Shown: positions 13,618 to 61,300 of the stretch, piece after piece
How the letters are laid out: each line of letters opens with the position of its first letter
Numbering within the stretch: the first letter of the stretch is position 1
NCBI GenBank assembly: GCA_034620365.1
Contig: JAQGEQ010000146.1
Coordinates: 62,001 to 126,000, forward strand
Reading direction: 5' to 3'
DNA length: 64,000 nt
DNA from: Pegea sp. RAD2-039
Lineage: Eukaryota > Chordata > Thaliacea > Salpida > Salpidae
The notes under the pieces: generated by a model
Told to the model about the DNA's origin: nothing
Databases searched by the model: none
What the model saw: the letters and a program-made list of their open reading frames with translations, nothing else
Position numbers and translations under genes: made by a program

Positions 13618-15568
13618 TTACATCAAATTTGGTCTATGTTTTCGATTGGGCGAAATGTTTATAATAGAATCGAAAAGTTTATTTCGAGGTCTTGTAACTT
13701 GATAAATGCGAAGTTTCAGAAGCCGAAGATAATCAAAAGCAGATCTCAGAGGACGCTTCCCATTCTTGTAGCAATCACTAGTATCACGCCAAGGAGGGTC
13801 TTCAGATGTAAAATGAGGAAAATGCTCAAATATAATATTTAAATCAAATCTTGTGAAAAGTCTTTCAGAGTCATAACATGAAATTGTGTTTGGAAAAATA
13901 ACAAAAGTTTCAGAGCTTTGCAAAGCCAGCCTGACTTGCAGTTCAAATAAGTGATAGGGTTGTCCTGATAAATCAATAATATTCACTCTACATGTCCTTA
14001 TATTAGAAGGGGAATCCACAAGATCAGAGAGACTAGCAAGGTGTCTAGGAGGCATATATGTCCGGTAGTAGATGAAGGTTAAGTTACAATTAGAAGCTTC
14101 TTTCCCACGGTACCAGCTACTTTCATGGTCTTGTATGATATTGTGAATATAATCAAGTGATGGAATAACTCCGCCTTGATGAATGATCCCAAAAGCAAAA
14201 AAGAAGATTATATTAAATGATGTCCAGATGAATAAGAAGGATTTGTGTTCTGTGATATCTTCAAAGCTTGTAGCAGTTAAAACTACTAAAGGTACAATTA
14301 AAGGTAGAATATAACGAGGTTCTTGATGAGGGAGCAGTGAAAGTATGACAAGTGGTAACAGAAAAGAGATTACTAAGATAGATGAAGAAGATTTGAAACT
14401 TAAATATTGTTCCATTTTCTGCCACGTTAAACGCGGGCATTGAAAAAAGAGAACTAAAACTAAAGGGCCAAATAATAGAGGAATATTTGCCAGAGAATGG
14501 GTATAAAAGGGGTGTAGACCATGTGCTTGGAGTTTTGAGATATTAGTGTTATAAAGAATGTTATTAAATGGAGTGAAAGTAGCTTTCTTTATCCAAGAAA
14601 AAAGTTTACTTTTTATTGTAGAGTTGTTAGGAGTTAAAAGTTTTATGAAATGAACTGGATTATGATATGCTGTGTCTATTAGAATAAAAATAATCGCCCA
14701 GAAAAAAGAATAAGTAATCAGCTGAAAAGTTTTATGAAATAATCTTGTGGTTGATGAAAATTGAGTGATGTTATCTTTTAACAACCATAGGAGAACTGGA
14801 AAAAATGCAAATGCAGCAAAAGATGGTCGAATAAAGAAACCAATAATCACCAAAAAAGAAATATAAAAACTATCTTTCAAACTATAATCAGAATCTTTTT
14901 TATTAACAGGTAAAGTAAAATATAATAGAACTACAAAAAGTAGTGTTTCTGTGGAGTTAGAGAAAGTTCTTGTATGATAAACCCAGGTTGTATAAGATGT
15001 ACTAAACAAAATCATTGCAACCAAACCATAATTAGAATTTCGAAAAGCTCGTAAAGAAAGTTTATAAATAAAAAAATCAATTAATAAACTTTTTAAGGTC
15101 ATCCAAATTCTTGGAATTATTAAAATGTTAAATGGTGTGATGAATTTTTTCAAATCAAAATTATCATTTAAACAAATGAACAACTTGAATGGAATTCCAG
15201 AAGACAAAAATGGGAAAATAATAGATCTAAAATGTTGTGTGGGTTGCCATTCCCAAGTCAGATGATGTTTAACACCAAGAATATCTCCTAAAAAATTTCA
15301 GTATATTACAACACTTAATAAAAATATAATATTTTTCTATAAAAAAGACTTTCTTAAAACATTTTTAAAAAATAAATTTTACTTTAAACAATTTTTTTAT
15401 AATTAAAAAGTTAGAAATCAATTTTAAAGAGTCATTACCTGCCATAACTTCAGAAGATTGGAAAAATTCATCTGGAAATATATATCCTGTTTGAGGTAAT
15501 AAACAAAGCATGAACCTCAACAACACCAAGTTCAACCAAAAAACTTTCAGCATAAATAAAGCAGACAT
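13618..15568 (-). CDS. PIGZ: GPI mannosyltransferase 4 (PIG-Z / Smp3, GT22)
   Basis: Two exons, 15568-15439 and 15287-13618; 1800 nt, 599 aa (human PIGZ about 579 aa). The joined start reads [20 protein letters not shown], then [15 protein letters not shown], the family N-terminal signature with the acidic DE pair expected at the luminal active site. Further on [10 protein letters not shown] matches the conserved HTRTFSNT segment, followed by many hydrophobic transmembrane stretches. The enzyme is an ER-membrane dolichol-phosphate-mannose-dependent transferase that adds the fourth mannose to GPI-anchor precursors. PIGB is the nearest alternative, but the N-terminal signature favours PIGZ. The exon junction is supported by GTAATG donor, TTTTTTAG acceptor and matching phase. 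Start chosen at the first ATG; Met6 is possible. Confidence 0.9.
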
Positions 15569-17755: not shown

Positions 17756-19980
17756 ATGGTTGAAGTCCATTTTAGTATCACTGCGATTGCATTATTTGCT
17801 TTAACATTCACAATTGCACTTGTTATTTTACTAATCTATCTTTCACCTGTAAGTTGTAATTCTTATTTATCAGTTATAAAAACAAATAAATTATATCTAA
17901 ATCATAATTTAGGGTTCGAAAAAGATTACAACCATACCAGGACCTACAATTGTGGACCATGAGTAAGTTTATAGTTAACAACAACATTTTTAATCAGAAT
18001 TAAACTATAATAGAGACGGTAACATCAATGATATTCAAAATGCTGGTTCCTTACATCAATATCTTAAACAAATTCATGGAAAGTTTGGATCTCTTGTGTC
18101 TTTTTGGTACGGAAGACAGCTTATTATTTCTAACTCTAACTTGAAAAGTTTTGCTCCAAGAAGTCAAGTGTTTGAAATACCAGGTGAGTTTAATGGGAAG
18201 TTTGAAAGATTTTTCACAAATTAGAGTTTAATGATCTGATTTTTAAAGAGTTTTTATTTGAAAACTGGAAATCATGTGTTGGAAAAGAAAGTTTTATCTT
18301 CTGTAAAGACATCAGTATCTTCCAAAGACGAGAAAATCTTGAATTTCATCTCAACGCTAAGATCAAAGAAAAATATGCTCAAATATTTCAATCAGTTAAT
18401 CTCCAGAAAATCTTCTCTTTTATCTTCAACTGGTTCATTTACAGCTTACTAAAGAACTCATTCAAAAGTGGAAAAGCCAACCTGATGGTGAACATATCCC
18501 TTTGACGAGGCATATGCAAATACTTGCTATGAAAGCGATCAGTAAACTGGTTTTTGGTGATTTTTTTGACACACCTAAAAACCTTGTTGGTTTGCACAAT
18601 TACTATGAAAGGGTTGGTTGCTTTCACAAATAGCGATCAGCAAATTTTTGTGATAATTTAATGTTTCAAAATTTGTTATTTTTTTATTTTTCGTCAAACC
18701 ATAATTTCTAGATTTCTAGTTATTCGGTTTTCTAGATGTTTGGTTTGAATTACAACTCACAAAACTGTTTGTTTCTAACAGTGTTGGAGCCAAGTAGTCA
18801 GCAAATCAAATAATGGGCCTACAAGGTCGCCAGAAGACATAGAAAAAGGTTGGATTAACTCTCTACTCACATCTAGTGTTATCAATATCTTTTAGACAGC
18901 AAAAACCTTCAAGAAATTATACAAGAAGCGATAGAAGCGAGATGGAAAGATAAAAAAGCTTTACCTGTACTAATTGATGGACTATTAACTGCATCTAACA
19001 AAAATCTAACCCATCAACAACTTGTAGCTGATTCTATAACTTTACTGACTGTTGGCATTCAATCATCAGTTTCAAGTAAGTCCTAACATCATCTGTTAAA
19101 ACTTCTCAAGTTTTATGAAGATTAGTCTGTAAATATCATCAAGTTTTTGGTAAAGTTTCATTTTAATTTCAGTTTTAACTTGGATGATGTTCTATTTGAT
19201 CGAAAATGAAGAAATTCAGGAAAATTTGCGGAAAAAATTGAATGAAGTTCACTCGCTAGATATCATGTCAGAAACACTCGTAGATCAAAAGTACCTCTGA
19301 TTAAAATCATATTTTCTGGTCACTAACTTCTAGAAAATTAAAAGCTTCAGTTTTATTTCAAGCTTCTAAATTCTATTTTTCACTAAAATAATTCTGTTCT
19401 AAGATATCTTCGAAGTATTATTAAGGAAAGTATCAGATGCGGAGAGATATTTTCGTGGTGTGGAAGGAAGCAGGATTTAGATGTTGTTCTCGATAAACAT
19501 TTGATCCACAAACAAGTACATCACTTCTATTTGAATATTTAGATTTTAGCAACTGAATTACAGACAGCAATCATCGAATCAATTGCCGTGTCTCTTCATA
19601 ATACTTGTGAAGATCCACAGAGGTGAGATAGTGTCCTTGTAGACACTTTAATTGGTTGTTTTGTTCTTAGATTCAACCCTGATCGGTTTATGAATGATGT
19701 AGAAGCAGACCCGATGCAATTTATACCTTTTGCGTTTGCTACAAGTCGCTACAAGCCAGAAAAGAGGTAATTGAAAGATGAAGTTGGCATTTTTCACAAA
19801 TTTTGTTTGTTTTGTAGTTTGGTTTATCTACTTGTTGCTATATGTGTTGCTTCAATAACTAAAGAATTTAAATTCAAATCACCAACTTCTGATTTGTTGA
19901 GTGATTCTGGTAACTATGACAACCTAACATCGATGCCTAGCAACGAAGATATTTGGATAGTTGTTGAAAAATCAACTTAA
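17756..19980 (+). CDS. CYP20A1: Cytochrome P450 family 20 (CYP20A1-like), axial Cys apparently replaced
   Basis: Twelve exons: 17756-17848, 17913-17962, 18014-18183, 18249-18394, 18445-18612, 18782-18848, 18896-19075, 19173-19290, 19404-19515, 19564-19622, 19671-19766 and 19818-19980; 1422 nt, 473 aa (human 462). Exon 1 is an N-terminal membrane anchor. Then IPGPTIVDHEDGNINDIQN and SFWYGRQLIIS match the orphan family CYP20. ELIQKWKS, RHMQILAMK and the K-helix ExxR (KESIRC) follow, then NPDRF. The heme-binding segment reads FAFATSRYKPEKSLVYLLV, where human CYP20A1 has GFSGTQECPELRFAYM, so the axial thiolate Cys aligns with Lys416 (AAG at 19753-19755). All junctions are in phase and no stop is seen, so this is not an obvious pseudogene. 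Substrate unknown. The exon 4/5 junction and long introns 5, 7 and 8 are least certain. Confidence 0.88.
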
Positions 19981-20273
19981 TCTCATAAGAAGACTGATGA
20001 AGAACTTTGTGAATGAGATGTTTTTATTAGTTTCTTTTTTTTGCATAAATAACAACCAGTAGTAGATAGTAACCAACATTTATATTTTAACATCATGCTT
20101 GTCGTGAAACACATAATAAAAAGACATCTTTTTGTCATTGATTCGGTTCTAGTGATTTGAAAATCTGTTTAAATAAGTTGGAATAAATTAGAGATTGTTC
20201 TGCTGTTGGAATGCAACTGCTAACTGGTTGCTTGTTAATTGAAACTTGAAAAAGAAAATTTGGCTAAAGATTG

Positions 20274-22695
20274 CTAGAAACAAGGATGCCTTTCTAAGAT
20301 CATAGAATGACCCTGAAAACAAGATCATTAAGAAGATTAGAGATGAAGAAAACAACTTACAATTCCACCAGCAGCACAAGCAGCTAGTAACGCAAACTTC
20401 CCATCTTCTTCTTGAAGACGATTAGCGCAAGTGATTGCTAATCTGTTACCAGTTGCCCCAAAAGGGTGTCCAATAGATAAAGATCCGCCCCATAAATTGA
20501 ATTTCTCCATAGGGGGAGCCCCTACCTGTTACAAAGATCTTTATGCAAATAATCACAACTGTAGAAGACTCACTTTGCAAGATCTGTTCATGTGATTTTG
20601 AGCAAAGTAATCAGATTCTAAAGCAGCGAGATTAGCGAGGATTTGACCCTAAAGTTGAAGCAAATGAAGATCTGGGGAGTGGATTCAGGTGACTAACCGC
20701 AAATGCTTCGTGAAACTCAAAGACGTCGATGTCTTGTAAGGTCAGTCCTGACTTGTCTAGGACAATTGGCATTGCATATGCTGGTCCTAATAAAAGCTGG
20801 TCCTTTGGGTCTTGGGACACAAAAGTATAATCTCTAGAAAAATTAAAAAAGATTTCGAACTTTGAATTCAAACTTTCAAATTAATGAATACCTGATGTAA
20901 GCTTTTGGTGTTAGTCCCATATCCAAAGCTTTTGATTCACTCATGATCAAAGAAGCACTTCCTCCGTCGCTCTAAACATCAAAACACTTCAACAAAGAGA
21001 CTTACAAATGAAGAAAAACTTACAAGAAAAGAAGCATTTGCAGCAGTCACTGTTCCATGTGGTTTAATAAAAGCAGCTTTTAATTTAGCCATTTTCTCCA
21101 TAGGTGTTGGTCTGATTCCATTATCAGCAGTGACTACTTCAGCCACACCTGACCAGCAACTTTCAAAGTGTTGTTGAAAACACGTGACTACTACTCACCA
21201 GGTACTTTAAAGTCAAGCCGATCTCTCAGTTTTCCTTCATTAGTGGCTTTCTGTGCGAAACTATGAGAACGGAAAGCAAATTCGTCTTGAGCTTGACGAG
21301 ATATTCCAAACGCTGCAGCTAATCTATCAGCAGAATGTCCCATAATTTCATTGGTTGAAAACTCAGCAATTCCAGGTAGCTACAGATGATAGAAGTTAGT
21401 AGAAGTCACGTGATCGGAAACAAACCTCAGGTGAGAAGTACTTGACGGGGCTAGCTAGGATTTTACCCACGTGACCAAGCATGCCTGCTGTAGTCTTTGT
21501 CTAAAAATACATTTTTTAATTTATTAAAATTTGAAAAGTATTTTTTACTTTGTTCATTTGTAGCATTCTACTTCGCATCTTTCGGTTATATTTTATTGGA
21601 ACATCAGACATAAAATCAACACCTCCAGCTACGACTGTATCAGCTTGTCCTGACTTGATCATATTCACAGCTAAACACATTTCCTTCAATTATTAATTGT
21701 ATGCGTGAAATAGTAAAAGTACCAGATGCAATTGCTTGGTTTGATGAAACACATGCTTGTGTTACAGTATGGCAAGGAGTTTTATTAGATATCCCGGCAC
21801 CTAGTGCAGCTTCTCTAGCAATGTTAGCTGTCTTAGTCTCCTATAGAATCAATCTAATTAGTAAAAAATATGAATTTGATGAGTATTTACTTGTATAACA
21901 GTTCCGCATATCACATAATCAATTTGATCTTTCGGTAATCCAGTTTTTTTAAGTAAACCTTTTATAGCTTCACGTTGAAGGTCATGCGGCATCAAGTTCT
22001 TGTATCTTTAAAAAAGATCTTTAAAATTTCATGATATGTAAATGAAGTCCCATCACTACATCAAAATCTATTTCACTAAATTTAATTAATTTGACTGTGA
22101 TACTTCTATCATCTGAAATTTCTATAATTTGCAGCCATCAGTTGAAATAAACAAATAAGTTTAAAAAGAGACCAAAGAAACTTTACAATAAATTATTTAA
22201 AAAGGCAAATTATAAGAGAAGAAATATCTTACTGAGTCCCAGACACTAGGAAAGGGGTCCTAGCTCCTTCTACTATCACAACTTCATTTGATTCCAGTTT
22301 TGATCCACTAAGACTTAAAGATCTTACAGCAACTAAAAATTTCATTAAATTATTTTATAATTTATTTTCTTAAAATTATTTACATTTCATTTAATTTATT
22401 TCTTATATCTTAAAATATTAGAAACTATATATAATTTATTATTTTTATTATACTTTAAAATTTCTTTCTATAAAATGTTTAAAACTAAAACAATTTTGTT
22501 GTTTAATCAAACATATAAGTTTTTTATATTAATAATAATTTGTTGTTTTTATTATAAAAATAATTAAAGAATAATTTTATTTTTTCATCTGATATAAAGC
22601 TTATAAAAAATAATATCCAAGATTCTGATCAACTTACTATTTAAAGATCCTCTTCTGGAGATCAGCTCAAAGCTTCGTTTATAAATTCCATACAT
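20274..22695 (-). CDS. HADHB: Trifunctional enzyme subunit beta, mitochondrial (3-ketoacyl-CoA thiolase)
   Basis: Thirteen exons: 22695-22638, 22332-22233, 22005-21891, 21840-21723, 21670-21549, 21500-21426, 21379-21199, 21148-21024, 20971-20892, 20833-20698, 20648-20574, 20525-20361 and 20312-20274; 1389 nt, 462 aa (human 474). The N-terminus [15 protein letters not shown] is a basic presequence fitting mitochondrial import. Thiolase residues are all present: nucleophile Cys in [11 protein letters not shown], His in FEFHEAFA, His in IGHPFGATG and the second Cys in [25 protein letters not shown] and [15 protein letters not shown] are diagnostic for HADHB. It performs the last step of long-chain beta-oxidation as partner of HADHA, encoded head to head 810 bp away. 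Confidence 0.96.
22045..22095 (+). repeat. Short dispersed repeat, copy in HADHB intron 2
   Basis: The stretch aagtcccatcactacatc followed by aaaatctat closely matches 47637-47663. Part of it also resembles 24134-24190, where aatagagtaaccaa (shared with 47608-47621) precedes a similar catcacattgaaatctatca. These look like remnants of a small dispersed element; boundaries and class cannot be set from three partial copies. Confidence 0.35.
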
Positions 22696-39479: not shown

Positions 39480-40900
39480 ATTAACAATCCATCTCGAAAT
39501 AAAAGTCCAAGACGGCAATTTATTTACATCTTTTACTTTCTATATTTTTGACTAAATAGATGTTATTTGTGAGAATGTGTGTTAGCGGGAGCTGCTCTTT
39601 TCAGGTACCCTCCTTCAAATTTATTGAAATAAATAAATGACAATAAATAAGTTGACTATTGATAGGAATAAAAACTGAATTCCTGAAATGCTTCAACAAA
39701 GGAAATGGATTTAAAGCTGCATTCGTATATGCTCAAAAATCCCAGTGAAACCAGAGACAAGGAAGAAGGCAACAGCTGAACACAAACCACCGCTGTTCCA
39801 GGGCACTAAATATTATTTGTTACTTGAATACGTTTGAATATCATTCACAATCATATGATGAGTCATTTGATGGAATACCAACTAACATCTGATGTCAAGC
39901 ATGGCTTTATGAAACGGGTCTATGAGCTGGTAGCTCAGAATCCAGCCCATAACCAGCTGCAACAACGTAAATGCTGCAAATTCCTTGAATCAATTCTCCA
40001 TCAATGGATTTATTATTCAACGAATATCTTCGGTCTTAGACCTTGGCATTAATCTATCATCTGACTTTAAATGGCGCAATTATGTTTCCAAAATCTTTGG
40101 AAAATCAATCAACCTTGTTTTCCTTATTATAAAGATCTTTAATTCTAATTACCCATGCTTTTTTATCAATCTTTTCAAATTGTACGTACCTCCAATTCTT
40201 GAATACAATATTAGTGCATGGATGCCATATCAAGTTGGTGATATCAAAAAAATCGAATCTGTTCAGGCGAAATTTACAAGATTAGTATGTAGGAAACTTA
40301 ATATTAAATATGATAGTTATAAACATCATCTCAGTCTTTTCAATTTAGATACTTTGGAAATTCGAGGGATTAAATACGACTTAATTATTATTTTTAAAAT
40401 TATTCACAATTTAACTGACTTTCAGTTTGATGACTTCTTTTCCATTAGTCCTTCCCTCAAGTTATACCAAATCAGACGACTCACATTACATCTTAATAAG
40501 CCTATATCACCTAGTACATTGGTAAGAGCGAATTTTTTCTCATACCGGACAATTAATACATGGAATTAGCTGCCATCAGACATTGCCATGTTGAAATCGC
40601 TCGCGTTGTTCAAAAAGAAGTTGAACTGTTATATATTGCCAACATTATCATTTCTAAACTGTGATTTTTTTCTCTTTTTTATACTATTAACATTCTATGT
40701 TCACGGTTATATGCTTTGAGTGATATCGAAATACCATTTGTTACATCTTTTGCTTTCTATCTTTCTAAACTTAATAACTGTTATTTGCGAGAATATGTGT
40801 TAGCGAGAGGTGCTCTCTTTAGGCACCCTCCTTCGTATTTATTGTAGTTAACAATTTATCTCGAAATAAAAGTTCAAGACGACAATTTATTTACATGTTG
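39480..40900 (+). mobile_element. Degenerate CR1/Jockey-type non-LTR retrotransposon remnants
   Basis: At 39834-39900 the frame MNIIHNHMMSHLMEYQLTSD continues into KHGF, the finger-region signature of LINE reverse transcriptases. The catalytic core that should follow is missing. The frame at 39985-40569 has the C-terminal RT/thumb signature: LDLGINLSSDFKW, VPPILEYNISAWMP, IESVQAKFTRLV, DTLEIRGIKYDLIIIFKII. It is followed by the family 3' UTR (about 40720-40850). A second 3' end lies upstream at about 39500-39640. The 47-bp stretch beginning about 39483 recurs at about 40849. The locus is thus several truncated, partly tandem LINE fragments. Exact clade (CR1, Jockey or related) and copy boundaries are uncertain. 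Confidence 0.8.
39985..40569 (+). pseudogene. LINE reverse-transcriptase C-terminal fragment
   Basis: An open frame of about 194 residues corresponding to the part of non-LTR retrotransposon ORF2 after the YADD catalytic region. It lacks the RT active site and endonuclease and cannot support retrotransposition alone. It ends at IRR-LTLHLNKP, then FFSYRTINTWN and a stop where family members normally continue with LP and a C-terminal tail. Confidence 0.75.
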
Positions 40901-52300: not shown

Positions 52301-55300
52301 ATGAAAATTTATTTTCAGATTTGAAGTTTTAATAATGGAAGAAACTAAGGAATGGTTTACAGAAAGTTTTTGTGAAAGTTTAAACCATCTTGGTAAAGAA
52401 TATGATGAATTAATTAATAGTTTTGATACAATTAAAGTGAGTACCCCAATTATTTGATGTAATAACCAATAAATTTCAAATAAATTAGATTAAAATATCG
52501 AAAAAGTCTTAGAATATCCCGGAAGATTGCTTCAATCCATTTTATTGACTTTAAAACTGTAATTCGTCTTCATCTTTCCACTTGTGGACCTTTTCTGATG
52601 TCTCCTGAGAGATGGTCCACATCACCTCCAGTCTAGACATCATCAGATAGGTGGTCCACAAGTAGTTGACTTCAGGGACTGTCAAAAACTTCTTCTTCTT
52701 CAGACATTAGAGCTTTTGTCATCCAAGAACCTCTATAATCCATCATAAGACCCTCTCTTCAATCTAAATCTTTTCTTCGCCCTCTCTGGGGCACTTCTTT
52801 AATTTATTCGAATCTTCATTCAATTAAACAACTTCTTTTGATCTTTAGGAAGAAGAGTTGCTGATCATACAAGATGTGAAAGAAGAAAAGAAAGATCAGA
52901 TTCCGAAAAAGGAGCCTGTGAAACTGAAAAAGTCCCAATCTTCAACATCACGAGTCAAAAGAAAATTCTCTACAATCCAACCGATCTCTAGGATCAGAAA
53001 AAGCTCCTTAGGAGCCGGGAAGACTATCTCAATGTCCAGTGATCACATCAACAACATGAAAAAAGATGAAAGCTCTTCCAAGAACACAGATCACTTTTCA
53101 GTGTCCACCATCTGCCGCAGATTCACTAAACTGACCACCTCTAGTAAGTCCCTGGTCAATTTAGAGCCCTTCCCTGTTCCTGTCGCGTCAGTGACGTCAC
53201 AATCAGAGGATAAGAAACGCTTCCATATGTTGACACCTCCAGTTTTGATGGATGGACAAGTTGTGAGTGATTATCAATATTTATCTTTGAAGAAGAAGCA
53301 ACAAATCTTTGAAGAAGTTGAAGATGAAGGAGGTAGAATCTCAAATGTAGTCCGTGCAATCCGAGAGAAAGTCCCAACGTCGCCTCTCAAGATCTTTCAG
53401 AAAGAATCTTTGCATAAAAACAACAACAACAACAGCGCGCCCTGTCTTTCGTCGCTAGCCCCCTAGTGGTCGTTTTCCCAAATTTGCCGAATCCTTCGAT
53501 TTTCTAATTTCATGTTTAATAAAACGAAAAATAGAAAGATGAGTGAATCTTTGAAAGCTCTTGAAGAGGAAGATACAGGTAGGGAACAAAATATATCTTC
53601 GAGAGGTAGAAGTGAATAGTTGCTAGGCAACAAACCTTCATGCCCTGATCACTGATGGCAAAGGAGTTGATGACAGAAAGTGATCCTTGAAAACGAGAAC
53701 TTCCGATCCCAACTTGCTCACTGATCAATTGAGATACAGATTTGATCATCTGTTGAAGATGAAGATAAGAAATTTGTTTATTTTGAAGATTATAAATAAA
53801 ATTTATAGTTTCAATCTGACAACTTCAACAAATTTATTTTTCAAATAAAAATTTGATTTTACATTTAATTTCAAGAAAAAAAAATTAAAAAATTAATTTA
53901 AATGAAAAATTTATAATTTTAAAACCACCAAACAGAAGATTTGTTTGTGAGACAAGTTATTATTGACTTGGTGTTGGTGGTCGAGGAGTTTTTACAAGTC
54001 AAGGTGCTAGAAGTAAGTGAGCCTTTAGCACCTTCAACCACCAAACACAAGATTTGTTTGTAAGACAAGTTATTATTGACTTGGTGTTGGTGGTCGAGGA
54101 GTTTTTACAAATAAAGGTGCTAGAAGTAAGCGAGTCTTCAGCACCTTCAACCACCAAACATAAGATTTGTTTGTAAGACAAGTTATTATTGACTTGGTGT
54201 TTGTGGTCGAAGAGTTTTTACAAGTCAAGGTGCTAGAAGTAAGTGAGCCTTTAGCACCTTCAACCACCAAACACAAGATTTGTTTGTAAGACAAGTTATT
54301 ATTGACTTGGTGTTGGTGGTCGAGAAGTTTTTACAAGTCAAGATGCTAGAAGCAAGTGAGTCTTCAGCACCTTCAACCACCAAACACAAGATTTGTTTGT
54401 AAGACAAGTTATTATTGACTTGGTGTTGGTGGTCGAGGAGTTTTTACAAATAAAGGTGCTAGAAGTAAGCGAGTCTTCAGCACCTTCAACCACCAAACAT
54501 AAGATTTGTTTGTAAGACAAGTTATTATTGACTTGGTGTTTGTGGTCGAGGAGTTTTTACAAGTCAAGGTGCTAGAAGTAAGTGAGTCTTCAACACCTTC
54601 AATCACCAAACACAAGATTTGTTTGTAAGACAAGTTATTATTGACTTGGTGTTGGTGGTCGAGAAGTTTTTACAAGTCAAGATGCTAGAAGCAAGTGAGT
54701 CTTCAGCACCTTCAACCACCAAACACAAGATTTGTTTGTAAGACAAGTTATTATTGACTTGGTGTTGGTGGTCGAGGAGTTTTTACAAGTCAAGATGCTA
54801 GAAGCAAGTGAGTCTTCAGCACCTTCAACCACCAAACATAAGATTTGTTTGTAAGACAAGTTATTATTGACTTGGTGTTGTCGGTCGAGGAGTTTTTACA
54901 AGTCAAGGTGCTAGAAACAAGTGAGTCTTCAACACCTTCAACCACCAAGCACAAGATTTGTTTATAAGACAAGTTATTATTGACATGGTGTTGTTGGTCG
55001 AGGAGTTTTTACAAGTCAAGATGCTAGAAGCAAGTGAGCCTTTAGCACCTTCAACCACCAAACATAAGATTTGTTTGTAAGACAAGTTATTATTGACTTG
55101 GTATTGTTGGTCGAGGAGTTTTTACAAGTCAAGGTGCTAGAAGTAAGCGAGTCTTCAGCACCTTCAACCACCAAACATAAGATTTGTTTGTAAGACAAGT
55201 TATTATTGACTTGGTGTTGGTGGTCGAGGAGTTTTTACAAGTCAAGGTGCTAGAAGTAAGCGAGTCTTCAGCACCTTCAACCACCAAACATAAGATTTGT

Positions 55301-58300
55301 TTGAAAGACAAGTTATTATTGACTTGGTGTTGGTGGTCGAGGAGTTTTTACAAGTCAAGATGCTAGAAGCAAGTGAGTCTTCAGCACCTTCAACCACCAA
55401 ACAGAAGATTTGTTTGTAAGATAAGTTATTATTGACTTGGTGTTGGTGGTCGAGGAGTTTTTACAAGTCAAGATGCTAGAAGCAAGCGAGTCTTCAGCAC
55501 CTTCAACCACCAAACAGAAGATTTGTTTGTAAGACAAGTTACTATTGACTTAGTTTTGGTGGTCGAGGAGTTTTTACAAGTCAAGGTGCTAGAAGCAAGT
55601 GAGTCTTCAGCACCTTCAACCACCAAACAAAAGATTTGTTTGTAAGATAAGTTATTATTGACTTGTTGTTGGTGGTCGAGGAGTTTTTACAAGTCAAGGT
55701 GCTAGAAGCAAGTGAGTCTTCAGCACCTTCAACCACCAAACACAAGATTTGTTTGTAAGACAAGTTACTATTGACTTGGTGTTGGTGGTCGAGGAGTTTT
55801 TACAAGTCAAGGTGCTAGAAGCAAGTGAGTCTTCAGCACCTTCAACCACCAAACACAAGATTTGTTTGTAAGACAAGTTATTATTGACTTGGTGTTGGTG
55901 GTCGAGGAGTTTTTACAAGTCAAGGTGCTAGAAGCAAGTGAGTCTTCAGCACCTTCAACCACCAAACAAAAGATTTGTTTGTAAGACAAGTTATTATTGA
56001 CTTGGTGTTGGTAGTCGAGGAGTTTTTACAAGTCAAGGTGCTAGAAGCAATTGAGACATATGATCTTAAAAGTGATGAAGAATAATATTTAGGAAGATGA
56101 AACGTGACTGACTTGTTGTTGTGATCTTGTGAAACCATGGCAACTGTTTAAAGTATAATTCTTCCTTAGTAACAAGTAGAGTAAGGCACAAGCTTCACTT
56201 CGTGTAGATGCTAATTGTGAATTGCATGATTTGAGGGTCTGGTAGATAAAACTGCTACAAATGTGATGTGATCCACGAAAAAGAACATTTGGAAACTGAA
56301 ATAATCCTAAAGATGAAGATTCAGTGATGTAGAGATCAAGTGATCACTTTGCCGATGACTAATCGAAGCGACGCAAACGCTTCTTGCAAGGTTCGCTCTG
56401 ATTGGTTGATTTGAAGGAAGTTTAATAAAAGTCCTATGATCCTCATCATCATCTTGTTGTCAGGCTTGTTCAGTTGTTTCTATGGAAACAGGTGATGACG
56501 TCACCATGAAGTTGCAATGGGTCGTATGTACCTTAAAGTATCTTGTGTAGTCAGAGATCACATCTAAGATGATTAATCCAATTTGTGAAGATAAATTAGA
56601 TAATAGAAGAAGTTCTTTTTCATCATCTGACTCGTTGGTCACTGAATCACAAACGTCACGTGATCTGATCTTTCAGATTCGGGGAATTACCTGATCCATA
56701 AGCATCTGCTATAATCTTCAAATTTTTGTTGTAATTGGTTGATGACGTCATCTTCACGCGAACCGGTAGTGTTCTTGCCTTCGTCGTTGAACTTAGTGGT
56801 CTGTAGATGTCGATTGGTTGCTAGGTAACGACGATAAAGACACAACTTACTTGACGACGTTTGAATTTTTCTTTTTACTTTTATATTGAAATTGTTTCAA
56901 CGAAATTCTGCAAAATATCGACGACTTAGCAGCTCCACCTAGCGGACCACTTTACTTACTCGAGAACTTCGATGAAATCAGCGATTTCTGAAGACGTTGA
57001 ATTCTTCCAGAAGCTCCAAAGAGCATCCACCGGAAGATTTTCGACAATTTGAAGAAAACAAAGAAGCAAATTTTGAATTTCAAAAAGTTCACATTTATCT
57101 TGATGTTCTATAACTATCATTGAAGAACTCGCAATACTCGGCGTCGCACTCTGTAACAACGATGACGTCATCAGTGACGTCATCAACTACATCATATCAC
57201 GTACTTTGTTGTAGAAAGAATCGATGCTAGGTGCAAACGAACCGCGATTGCCACGAAGCATCAAACTTGACGAAGGGTTTGCTAAAATGATGATGACGTC
57301 ATAAATCTGTTGCTACTAGCAACCAAGCTACTTACCAATCGCGTTTTTGACGTAATTATCGACGGTTTTTTTGAGTCGTAGACTCGATTGAAGAGAATTA
57401 GTCGAATCATCAATTCCCTAGCAACAATAATAACAAGTTGCTTAGCAACAACAATAATAACAAATTGCTTAGCAACAACAATAATAACGATTTGCTTAAC
57501 AACAACAGCAATAATAAGTTGCTTAGCAACAACAATATTAACGAATTGCTTAGCGACAACAATAATAACAAACTGCTTAGCGACAAGAATAATAACGAAT
57601 TGCTTAACAACAACACTAATAACAAGTTGCTTAATAACAACAATAATAACAAACTGCTTAACAACAGCACTAATAACAAATTGCTTAACAACAACAATAA
57701 TAACGAATTGCTTAACAACAATAATAGCAAATTGCTTAGCAACAACAATAATAACGAATTGCTTAGCAACAACAATAATAACGATTTGCTTAACAACAAC
57801 AGCAATAATAAGTTGCTTAGCAACAACAATATTAACGAATTGCTTAGCGACAACAATAATAACAAACTGCTTAGCGACAAGAATAATAACGAATTGCTTA
57901 ACAACAACACTAATAACAAGTTGCTTAATAACAACAATAATAACAAACTGCTTAACAACAGCACTAATAACAAATTGCTTAACAACAACAATAATAACGA
58001 ATTGCTTAACAACAATAATAACAAATTGCTTAGCAGCAACAATAATAATGAATTGCTTAGCAACAACAATAATAACAAATTGCTTAGCAACAACAATAAT
58101 AACGAATTGCTTAGCAACAACAATAATAACGAACTGCTTAGCAACAACAATAATAACAAATTGCTTACCAACAACAATAATAACAAATTGCTTAGCAACA
58201 ACAATAATAACAAACTGCTTAGCAACAACAATAATAACGAATTGCTTAACAACAACAGCAATAATAAGTTGCTTAGCAACAACAATAATAACAAGTTGCT

Positions 58301-61300
58301 TAGCAACAACAATAATAACAAATTGCTTAGCAACAACAATAATAACAAATTGCTTAGCAACAACAATAATAACAAACTGCTTAGAAACAACAATAATAAC
58401 GAATTGCTTAACAACAACAGCAATAATAAGTTGCTTAGCAACAACAATAACAACAAGTTGCTTAGCAACAACAATAATAACAAACTGCTTAGCAACAACA
58501 ATAATAACAAACTGCTTAGCAACAACAATAATAACGAATTGCTTACCAACAACAATAATAACGAATTGCTTACCAACAACAATAATAACGAATTGCTTAG
58601 CAACAACAATAATAACAAACTGCTTAACAACAGCACTAATAACAAATTGCTTAGCAACAACAATAATAACAAACTGCTTAGCAACAACAATAATAACGAT
58701 TTGCTTAACAACAACAGCAATAATAAGTTGCTTAGCAACAACAATATTAACGAATTGCTTAGCGACAAGAATAATAACGAATTGCTTAACAACAACAATA
58801 ATAACGAATTGCTTACCAACAACAATAATAACAAACTGCTTAGCAACAACAATAACAACGAATTGCTTAGCAACAACAATAATAACAAATTGCTTAGCAA
58901 CAACAGCAATAATAAGTTGCTTAGCAACAACAATAATAACGAATTGCTTAGCAACAACAATAATAACAAATTGCTTAGCAACAACAATAATAACAAATTG
59001 CTTAGCAACAACAATAATAACAAATTGCTTAGCAACAACAATAATAACGAATTGCTTAGCAACAACAATAATAACAAATTGCTTACCAACAACAATAGTA
59101 ACGAATTGCTTACCAACAACAATAATAACGAATTGCTTAGCAACAACAATAATAACAAACTGCTTAACAACAACAATAATAACGAATTGCTTACCAACAA
59201 CAATAATAACAAACTGCTTAGCAACAACAATAATAACGATTTGCTTAACAACAACAGCAATAATAAGTTGCTTAGCAACAACAATATTAACGAATTGCTT
59301 AGCGACAAGAATAATAACGAATTGCTTAACAACAACACTAATAACAAGTTGCTTAATAACAACAATAATGACAAATTGCTTAGCAGCAACAATAATAACG
59401 AATTGCTTAGCAACAACAATAATAACGAATTGCTTAGCAACAACAATAATAACGAATTGCTTAGCAACAACAATAATAACAAATTGCTTACCAACAACAA
59501 TAATAACGAATTGCTTCGCAACAACAATAATAACAAATTGCTTAGCAACAACAATAACAACGGATTGCTTAGCAACAACAATAATAACAAATTGCTTAGC
59601 AACAACAATAATAACAAATTGCTTACCAACAACAATAATAACGAATTGCTTACCAACAACAATAATAACGAATTGCTTACCAACAACAATAATAACAAAC
59701 TGCTTAGCAACAACAATAATAACGAATTGCTTAGCAACAACAATAATAACAAATTGCTTAGAAACAACAATAATAACAAACTGCTTAGCAACAACAGCAA
59801 TAATAAGTTGCTTAGCAACAACAATAATAACGAATTGCTTAGTAACAACAATAATAACAAATTGCTTAGCAACAACAATAATAACAAATTGCTTAGCAAC
59901 AACAATAGTAACAAATTGCTCAGCAACAACAATGATTACGAATTGCTTAGCAACAACAATAATAACAAACTGCTTAGCAACAACAATAATAACAAATTGC
60001 TTACCAACAACAATAATAACAAACTGCTTAGCAACAACAATAATAACAAATTGCTTACCAACAACAATAATAACGAATTGCTTAGCAACAACAATAATAA
60101 CAAATTGCTTAACAACAGCAGCAATAAGTTGCTTAGCAACAACAATAATAATATTAAATTGCTTAACAACAACAATAATGAAAAGTTGCTTAGCAACCTT
60201 GCTTAGTTACCATTTTGATTTCATTTTCTTTGACGTTACGAAGAAGGTCGATATTATCGAGAAGTATTCGAAGAAATGGAAGATAAAGTGAAGCGATTCG
60301 CGATTTCTTCTCTTTTGTTTGATATCTAATTCAAAATAACTTTTTTTATTTTTTCATTTTTTTTTATCAACTCAACCTGTCATCAAATATATGCTTCGCG
60401 AGAATATCGCGGAATGTTTCTATAGCAATCCATCGAATATCTGGTGACGCATGTAGCGCTGATGACGTATGTTGTAGAAGTAATCCAACAATAAAATGAT
60501 TTCGACAAAAACTATCACTCATTGATAAATGATAATCTGAAAATTTAAAATTTCATCCGCTAGAAGTCGCTAGAGAGTTAAAACAAACCAGTTTTGGAGA
60601 CGGGGGCAAGCGGAAGGTTTAGAGGGATGTAATGCTCATGACTACAAATAATTCGAAAAAATTTGAATTTGCATTCAAATAGCGTCTAAAAGAAAAAAAC
60701 TTTTCGATTAGCAACCTTTGAACCTTTCATTTATTATTAAAACGCCTCAGCCAGATGTCCACACGTTTAATTATTAACAGTGATGACGTCATCGTGCTAA
60801 TGACGTCATGTAGTGTAATAGCGCAGCAAATAGCGATGTGCAGAGAAGCAACAGGTGCTTCTATTATCCGGAATTATTTTTAAGTTTCCAATTTTAGCTT
60901 TTTTGTGGTATTTCCAAAATTTACAAGAAAGTACTTGATGGGTTTTCGAACCTTTGGATCATTTGAGGAAAAAAAGGAGAGATAGATGTTGATGAGTTTG
61001 AAGATGAAGCCTCTGTCAAGAAGATTGAAGCTTTGTTTGAAGAGTGTCGCGAGACTTTCATTCGCATTTGAAGTTTCTTTCACCAAATTCTAAAAAAACA
61101 AATAAAAAAAAATTCCAAACTTTTTTTCAACAATTTTGTTTTTCAACAAATTTTTTTGTTTCTTTTTTATTTCAGCGAATAGCGGAAATAGCGCTTATGA
61201 CGTCATCGAATCAGAGCACTGATGTCATCGAATTAGTGCTCTGACGTCATAATCGATAAAGACTCGATTACTGGTTGATCGGTGAAAGCAGGCAAGTTAC

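Follow-up and report, generated by a model that had tools for sequence, protein, structure and literature searches.

A CYP20-type cytochrome P450 gene in the salp Pegea sp. with lysine at the position of the heme-ligating cysteine

CYP20A1, referred to as the "last human orphan P450", is described as occurring even in early-branching animals such as sponges and as having no known endogenous substrate (PMC8669017). Published CYP20A1 heme loops read FGFAGKRKCPG in Hydra and PFGFGKRKCLG in Capitella, and published identities are 34% to human for a damselfly CYP20 and about 40% to other CYP20A1s for the Capitella protein. Across the 57 functional human CYPs, four sites are reported as invariant, namely Phe, Cys, Glu and Arg. 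We analysed a window of 64,000 nucleotides from Pegea sp. RAD2-039 (contig JAQGEQ010000146.1), in which a first-pass annotation had noted a CYP20A1 orthologue with Lys in place of the heme-thiolate Cys.

The forward strand at 17756-19980 contains 12 exons that can be spliced into a stop-free open frame of 481 residues. The 11 introns of this CYP20-type gene are 41-169 bases long, all are GT-AG, and their phases are consistent, so that the open frame and consistent splice phases claimed in the first-pass annotation were borne out over all 12 exons. Exon 1 (17756-17848), which aligned to human CYP20A1 (throughout, in a working version of its sequence), carries the start codon and, by eye, a hydrophobic N-terminal anchor. 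Exon 2 (17913-17962) covers the IPGP region, exon 3 (18014-18183) reads DGNINDIQNAGSLHQYL...VSFWYGR and matches human residues 40-80 at 51% over 41 residues, exon 4 (18225-18394) covers the C-helix region, and exon 5 (18445-18612) has a weak donor at its 3′ end. Exon 6 (18782-18848) comes from the gene model only and is the least certain exon. Exon 7 (18896-19075; start at 18900 in the spliced alignment) contains the I-helix motif VGIQSS at 19051-19068 and is followed by exon 8 (19173-19290), exon 9 (19404-19515), which carries the ExxR motif as ESIR at 19426-19437, just as had been claimed, and exon 10 (19564-19622). Exons 2-5 and 7-12 were obtained from both the spliced alignment and the gene model. 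Exon 11 (19671-19766) contains the meander motif FNPDRF (19672-19689) and the heme loop FAFATSRYKPE (19729-19761) and ends with ...FAFATSRYKPEK at its 3′ end, and exon 12 (19818-19980) opens with SLVYLL and encodes the L-helix and C-terminus, ending in the stop codon TAA. A possible polyadenylation signal, a match to the AATAAA/ATTAAA pattern only, lies at 20115-20120 on the same strand, about 135 bases past the stop.

Spliced alignment of the DNA to human CYP20A1 required no frameshift when frameshifts were penalised at 25 and at 60 (score 467.6). At a penalty of 15, a path with two frameshifts was preferred for the same protein (479.5 vs 467.6), and the frameshift-free alignment placed exon 6 at 18720-18766; either version of exon 6 keeps the frame. 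Because of the two-frameshift path and the differing exon 6, exons 5-7 are the least certain part of a gene structure that is otherwise firm on sequence grounds, and exons 8-12, with the ExxR motif and the heme loop, were identical across all alignment runs. The donors of introns 4-6 are weak. Two other readings of the 5′ half were dropped: an exon 3 start at 17998 yields no open model, the acceptor at 18014 having been taken from the spliced alignment, and a resemblance read out of frame in exon 4 (NHVLEKK) had raised the suspicion of a pseudogene until the in-frame reading was found to align without a frameshift. With the acceptor at 18014 and exon 4 read without interruption, the apparent phase breaks disappear.

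The product belongs to the P450 superfamily by its match to Pfam p450 (PF00067; E=8.3e-28; 97.8 bits, cut-off 22.8), which spans residues 50-417 and ends short of the Lys, by ExxR and by the meander motif. It aligned with human CYP20A1 at 26.5% identity over 475 residues (200 bits), compared with 43.9 bits for CYP3A4, the best PDB chain. When human CYP20A1 was compared with 52 loci of the Pegea genome, which were unspliced and thus handicapped, the best locus outside the window reached 84.3 bits (residues 190-437); among the matches listed, no other locus covered human residues 40-80, where exon 3 of the window gene matches. The best full-length match is therefore to CYP20 over other P450s, which places the gene in the CYP20 clan by similarity to the human sequence. 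P450 nomenclature applies a rule of about 40% identity for a family name, and the identity to human falls below it for CYP20A, as it also falls below the published damselfly and Capitella values. Because of the latter, we read the gene as a CYP20-clan orthologue; the relationship asserted in the first-pass annotation stands over the full length of the protein.

In the heme loop, the axial Cys position is occupied by Lys424 (AAG, 19753-19755, forward strand). The Lys is in register with the Cys of the Hydra loop, both being eight residues after the first Phe, and the codon reported in the first-pass annotation was correct, with its residue number changing from Lys416 to Lys424 in the full 481-residue model. 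Relative to the Hydra loop, both Phe residues, Ala, Arg and Pro are kept, Cys and Gly are changed, and the Gly four residues before the ligand position is Thr. By this placement, three of the four invariant human CYP sites are retained and the fourth, the axial Cys of a catalytic heme-thiolate P450, is lost. The loop scored 19 against the Hydra loop in BLOSUM62, a score reached or exceeded in 9 of 20000 shuffles of the 11-mer; residues 114-124 of the same protein score equally, so that the 11-mer by itself does not fix the placement, which is supported instead by the whole alignment and by the motif order. The alignment to human had been described as free of gaps from PDRF onward; this holds from the loop FxF as far as the start of exon 12, but two extra residues lie just after PDRF.

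It is very improbable that the Lys stems from an assembly error at this codon or that a transcript outside the model brings the Cys back. The locus is represented by one assembled copy only, which leaves room for an error, but none of the three bases of AAG agrees with TGT or TGC, so three consecutive wrong bases would be needed, and the long neighbouring frames are open. The first-pass annotation had named another exon restoring FxGxxxC as a way in which its claim could fail. The introns flanking exon 11, of 48 and 51 bases, are too short to hold another exon, the other two forward frames of exon 11 are closed by stops, and no Cys-bearing heme loop was seen when 19560-20300 was translated in all three forward frames.

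The neighbouring frames of 343, 498 and 559 codons encode NIF3, katanin p60 and an Alg9-type mannosyltransferase, respectively, the last at 13618-15297 and of note here only as a neighbour. Thiolase exons at 20632-20880 and 21191-21379 on the reverse strand, with Thiolase_C and Thiolase_N matches, are convergent with the CYP20 gene. Elsewhere in the window, a 211-codon open frame at 39934-40569 resembles the tail of a retrotransposon polyprotein by eye and has no Pfam match. A 113-base tandem repeat occupies 55000-56055 (9.3 copies, 96%), in a scan that began at 55000, so that the array may start earlier, and a 27-base tandem repeat at 57422-60197 (103 copies, 88% match) has high AT skew and keeps frames of 841-974 codons open on both strands. 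GC content is low, 24 to 39% per 4 kb, and no telomere-like pattern was found within the 64-kb window.

The CYP20 locus is single-copy in the genome: there was no second copy by DNA, and protein matches elsewhere were distant P450s of at most 43.9 bits. A scan of a collection of genome contigs with six 8-residue patterns from the whole protein, which address close relatives only, confirmed none. A set of 35 other P450 heme regions was taken from the Pegea genome, and all 35 keep Cys, in 29 by pattern and in the remaining six by eye in the following exon; these regions were chosen among 91 p450 profile matches and include several near-identical copies. The profile matches do not include the window gene itself, and other divergent P450s may be missing from them too. 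Near-identical P450 stretches occur in pairs, one between C30 and C18 and the others at two places each in C258, C80, C34 and C1; the pairs are either recent duplicates or unmerged haplotypes. In another gene family of the same genome, matches to the nuclear-receptor DNA-binding domain recur every ~4.15-4.17 kb within contigs C138, C150, C288, C291, C294 and C326, as if a receptor gene were arranged there in a tandem array; other matches to this domain are single and on small contigs, and the zf-C4 profile gave 100 matches. In this genome of 105.7 Mb, COX1 had no match, although it matched in 8 control genomes; Chitin_bind_4 and innexin likewise had none, but they also matched in none of the 14 controls, so that these two zeros are no sign of absence.

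The first-pass annotation held that the protein looks maintained, and the stop-free 481 codons and intact splice dinucleotides, in a gene in which one codon has changed at all three bases, agree with this, although the backing is indirect. A stop would result from 214 of the 4329 single substitutions that the coding sequence allows. Under free drift, 3.6 stops are expected when 5% of sites have changed (probability of none, 0.028) and 7.1 when 10% have changed (probability of none, 0.0008). As low divergence would seldom alter all three bases of one codon, constraint is favoured, not proved, and the orthologue is probably maintained; if selection on the gene had ceased recently, a single event changing several bases, followed by a short time, could also leave an intact frame with a changed codon. 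Such early decay, in which function was lost recently and the frame is still unbroken, would account for the missing heme-ligating residue, for the weak donors of introns 4-6 and for an identity to human below that of other published CYP20s, and loss of the gene may be tolerable, since zebrafish cyp20a1 nulls are reported to grow and reproduce with few defects (PMC8669017). We nevertheless consider decay unlikely, as the 481 codons have no stop, the splice dinucleotides are intact, exon 12 past the loop still aligns to its end, and three base changes in one codon are not expected at a divergence that permits an unbroken frame.

We consider it somewhat probable that the gene encodes a maintained, non-catalytic protein with a P450 fold. 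The single-copy CYP20 orthologue has lost the cysteine thiolate of the heme iron but keeps an open frame, its splice sites and the core motifs of P450s, and its product would be a membrane-anchored P450 fold now without P450-type oxygen activation. Its action, if any, may be the binding of a hydrophobic ligand or a protein partner, as in bacterial Cys-less P450 homologues. Expression, maintenance, loss of catalysis and a binding role are what we infer for this protein. The retained hydrophobic N-terminus, ExxR and meander motif are consistent with a folded P450 body. The thiolate ligand is required for P450 oxygen activation, and therefore ordinary monooxygenase activity of the Pegea protein is very unlikely. 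Against a maintained non-catalytic protein count the weak donors of introns 4-6, the differing exon 6 and the two-frameshift path at penalty 15.

A further point against it comes from two arginines, R422 and R360, at positions that we take usually to contact the heme propionates, and for which an apo protein would have no evident use. They bear on an altered heme protein, in which the pocket heme would be ligated by Lys424 or another group and the protein would sense, carry or react in a manner unlike that of P450s. The human protein, in the working version of its sequence, has Gln at both positions, and we count this in favour of an altered heme protein. R422 precedes the ligand position by two residues, an arrangement shared with the Hydra and Capitella loops, R360 is kept and aligned with an Arg of CYP3A4, and the loop Phe, ExxR and meander motif are also kept. 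On the other side, Thr replaces the loop Gly four residues ahead of the ligand, further loop positions differ, and the propionate roles of the arginines are presumed ones; we regard an altered heme protein as improbable. That the protein may fail to bind heme in the way of a P450, as the first-pass annotation suggested, is what established P450 chemistry implies, but a loss of heme itself need not follow, given that R422 and R360 are kept.

It is conceivable, though we would put it among the less likely possibilities, that CYP20 has an old role independent of heme-thiolate chemistry, carried here by a Cys-free protein that would function with Lys-ligated heme or, without heme, as a receptor of P450 fold. 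In that case, the lack of a substrate for human CYP20A1 may reflect a main function that was never catalytic. An intact Cys-less orthologue, if common to relatives of Pegea, would separate the retained purpose of the gene from P450 catalysis and would suggest a role in binding or structure that is open to direct testing.

Compared with the CYP20A1 proteins of human, zebrafish, Capitella, Hydra and Aurelia, the Pegea protein has ExxR, meander and heme loop in the same order and spacing, but differs in Lys for the axial Cys, Thr for the loop Gly and lower identity to human. Its I-helix motif is non-canonical, as reported for cnidarian CYP20s; the corresponding motif of Capitella CYP20A1 is AGFHTT. 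Searches for CYP20 among open-licence papers brought up no Cys-less CYP20, and a paper on Capitella P450s notes that exceptions to the axial Cys are documented, citing Sezutsu 2013. Like the Pegea protein, EryCII and DesVIII, which activate glycosyltransferases, are described as P450 homologues without the heme-ligating Cys (PMC3391682). By contrast, they are described as soluble proteins of bacterial antibiotic clusters, in which an extra N-terminal helix binds a known partner glycosyltransferase (PMC3391682), and they are related to CYP20 through the P450 fold only. The oomycete CYP5619D sequences are closer in being eukaryotic members of the P450 family, and six of them are reported to be without the conserved Cys; CYP5619D is a P450 fusion family, and its kinship with CYP20 is at the superfamily level only (PMC5919972). 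From these published descriptions, Cys-less P450 homologues are already known elsewhere.
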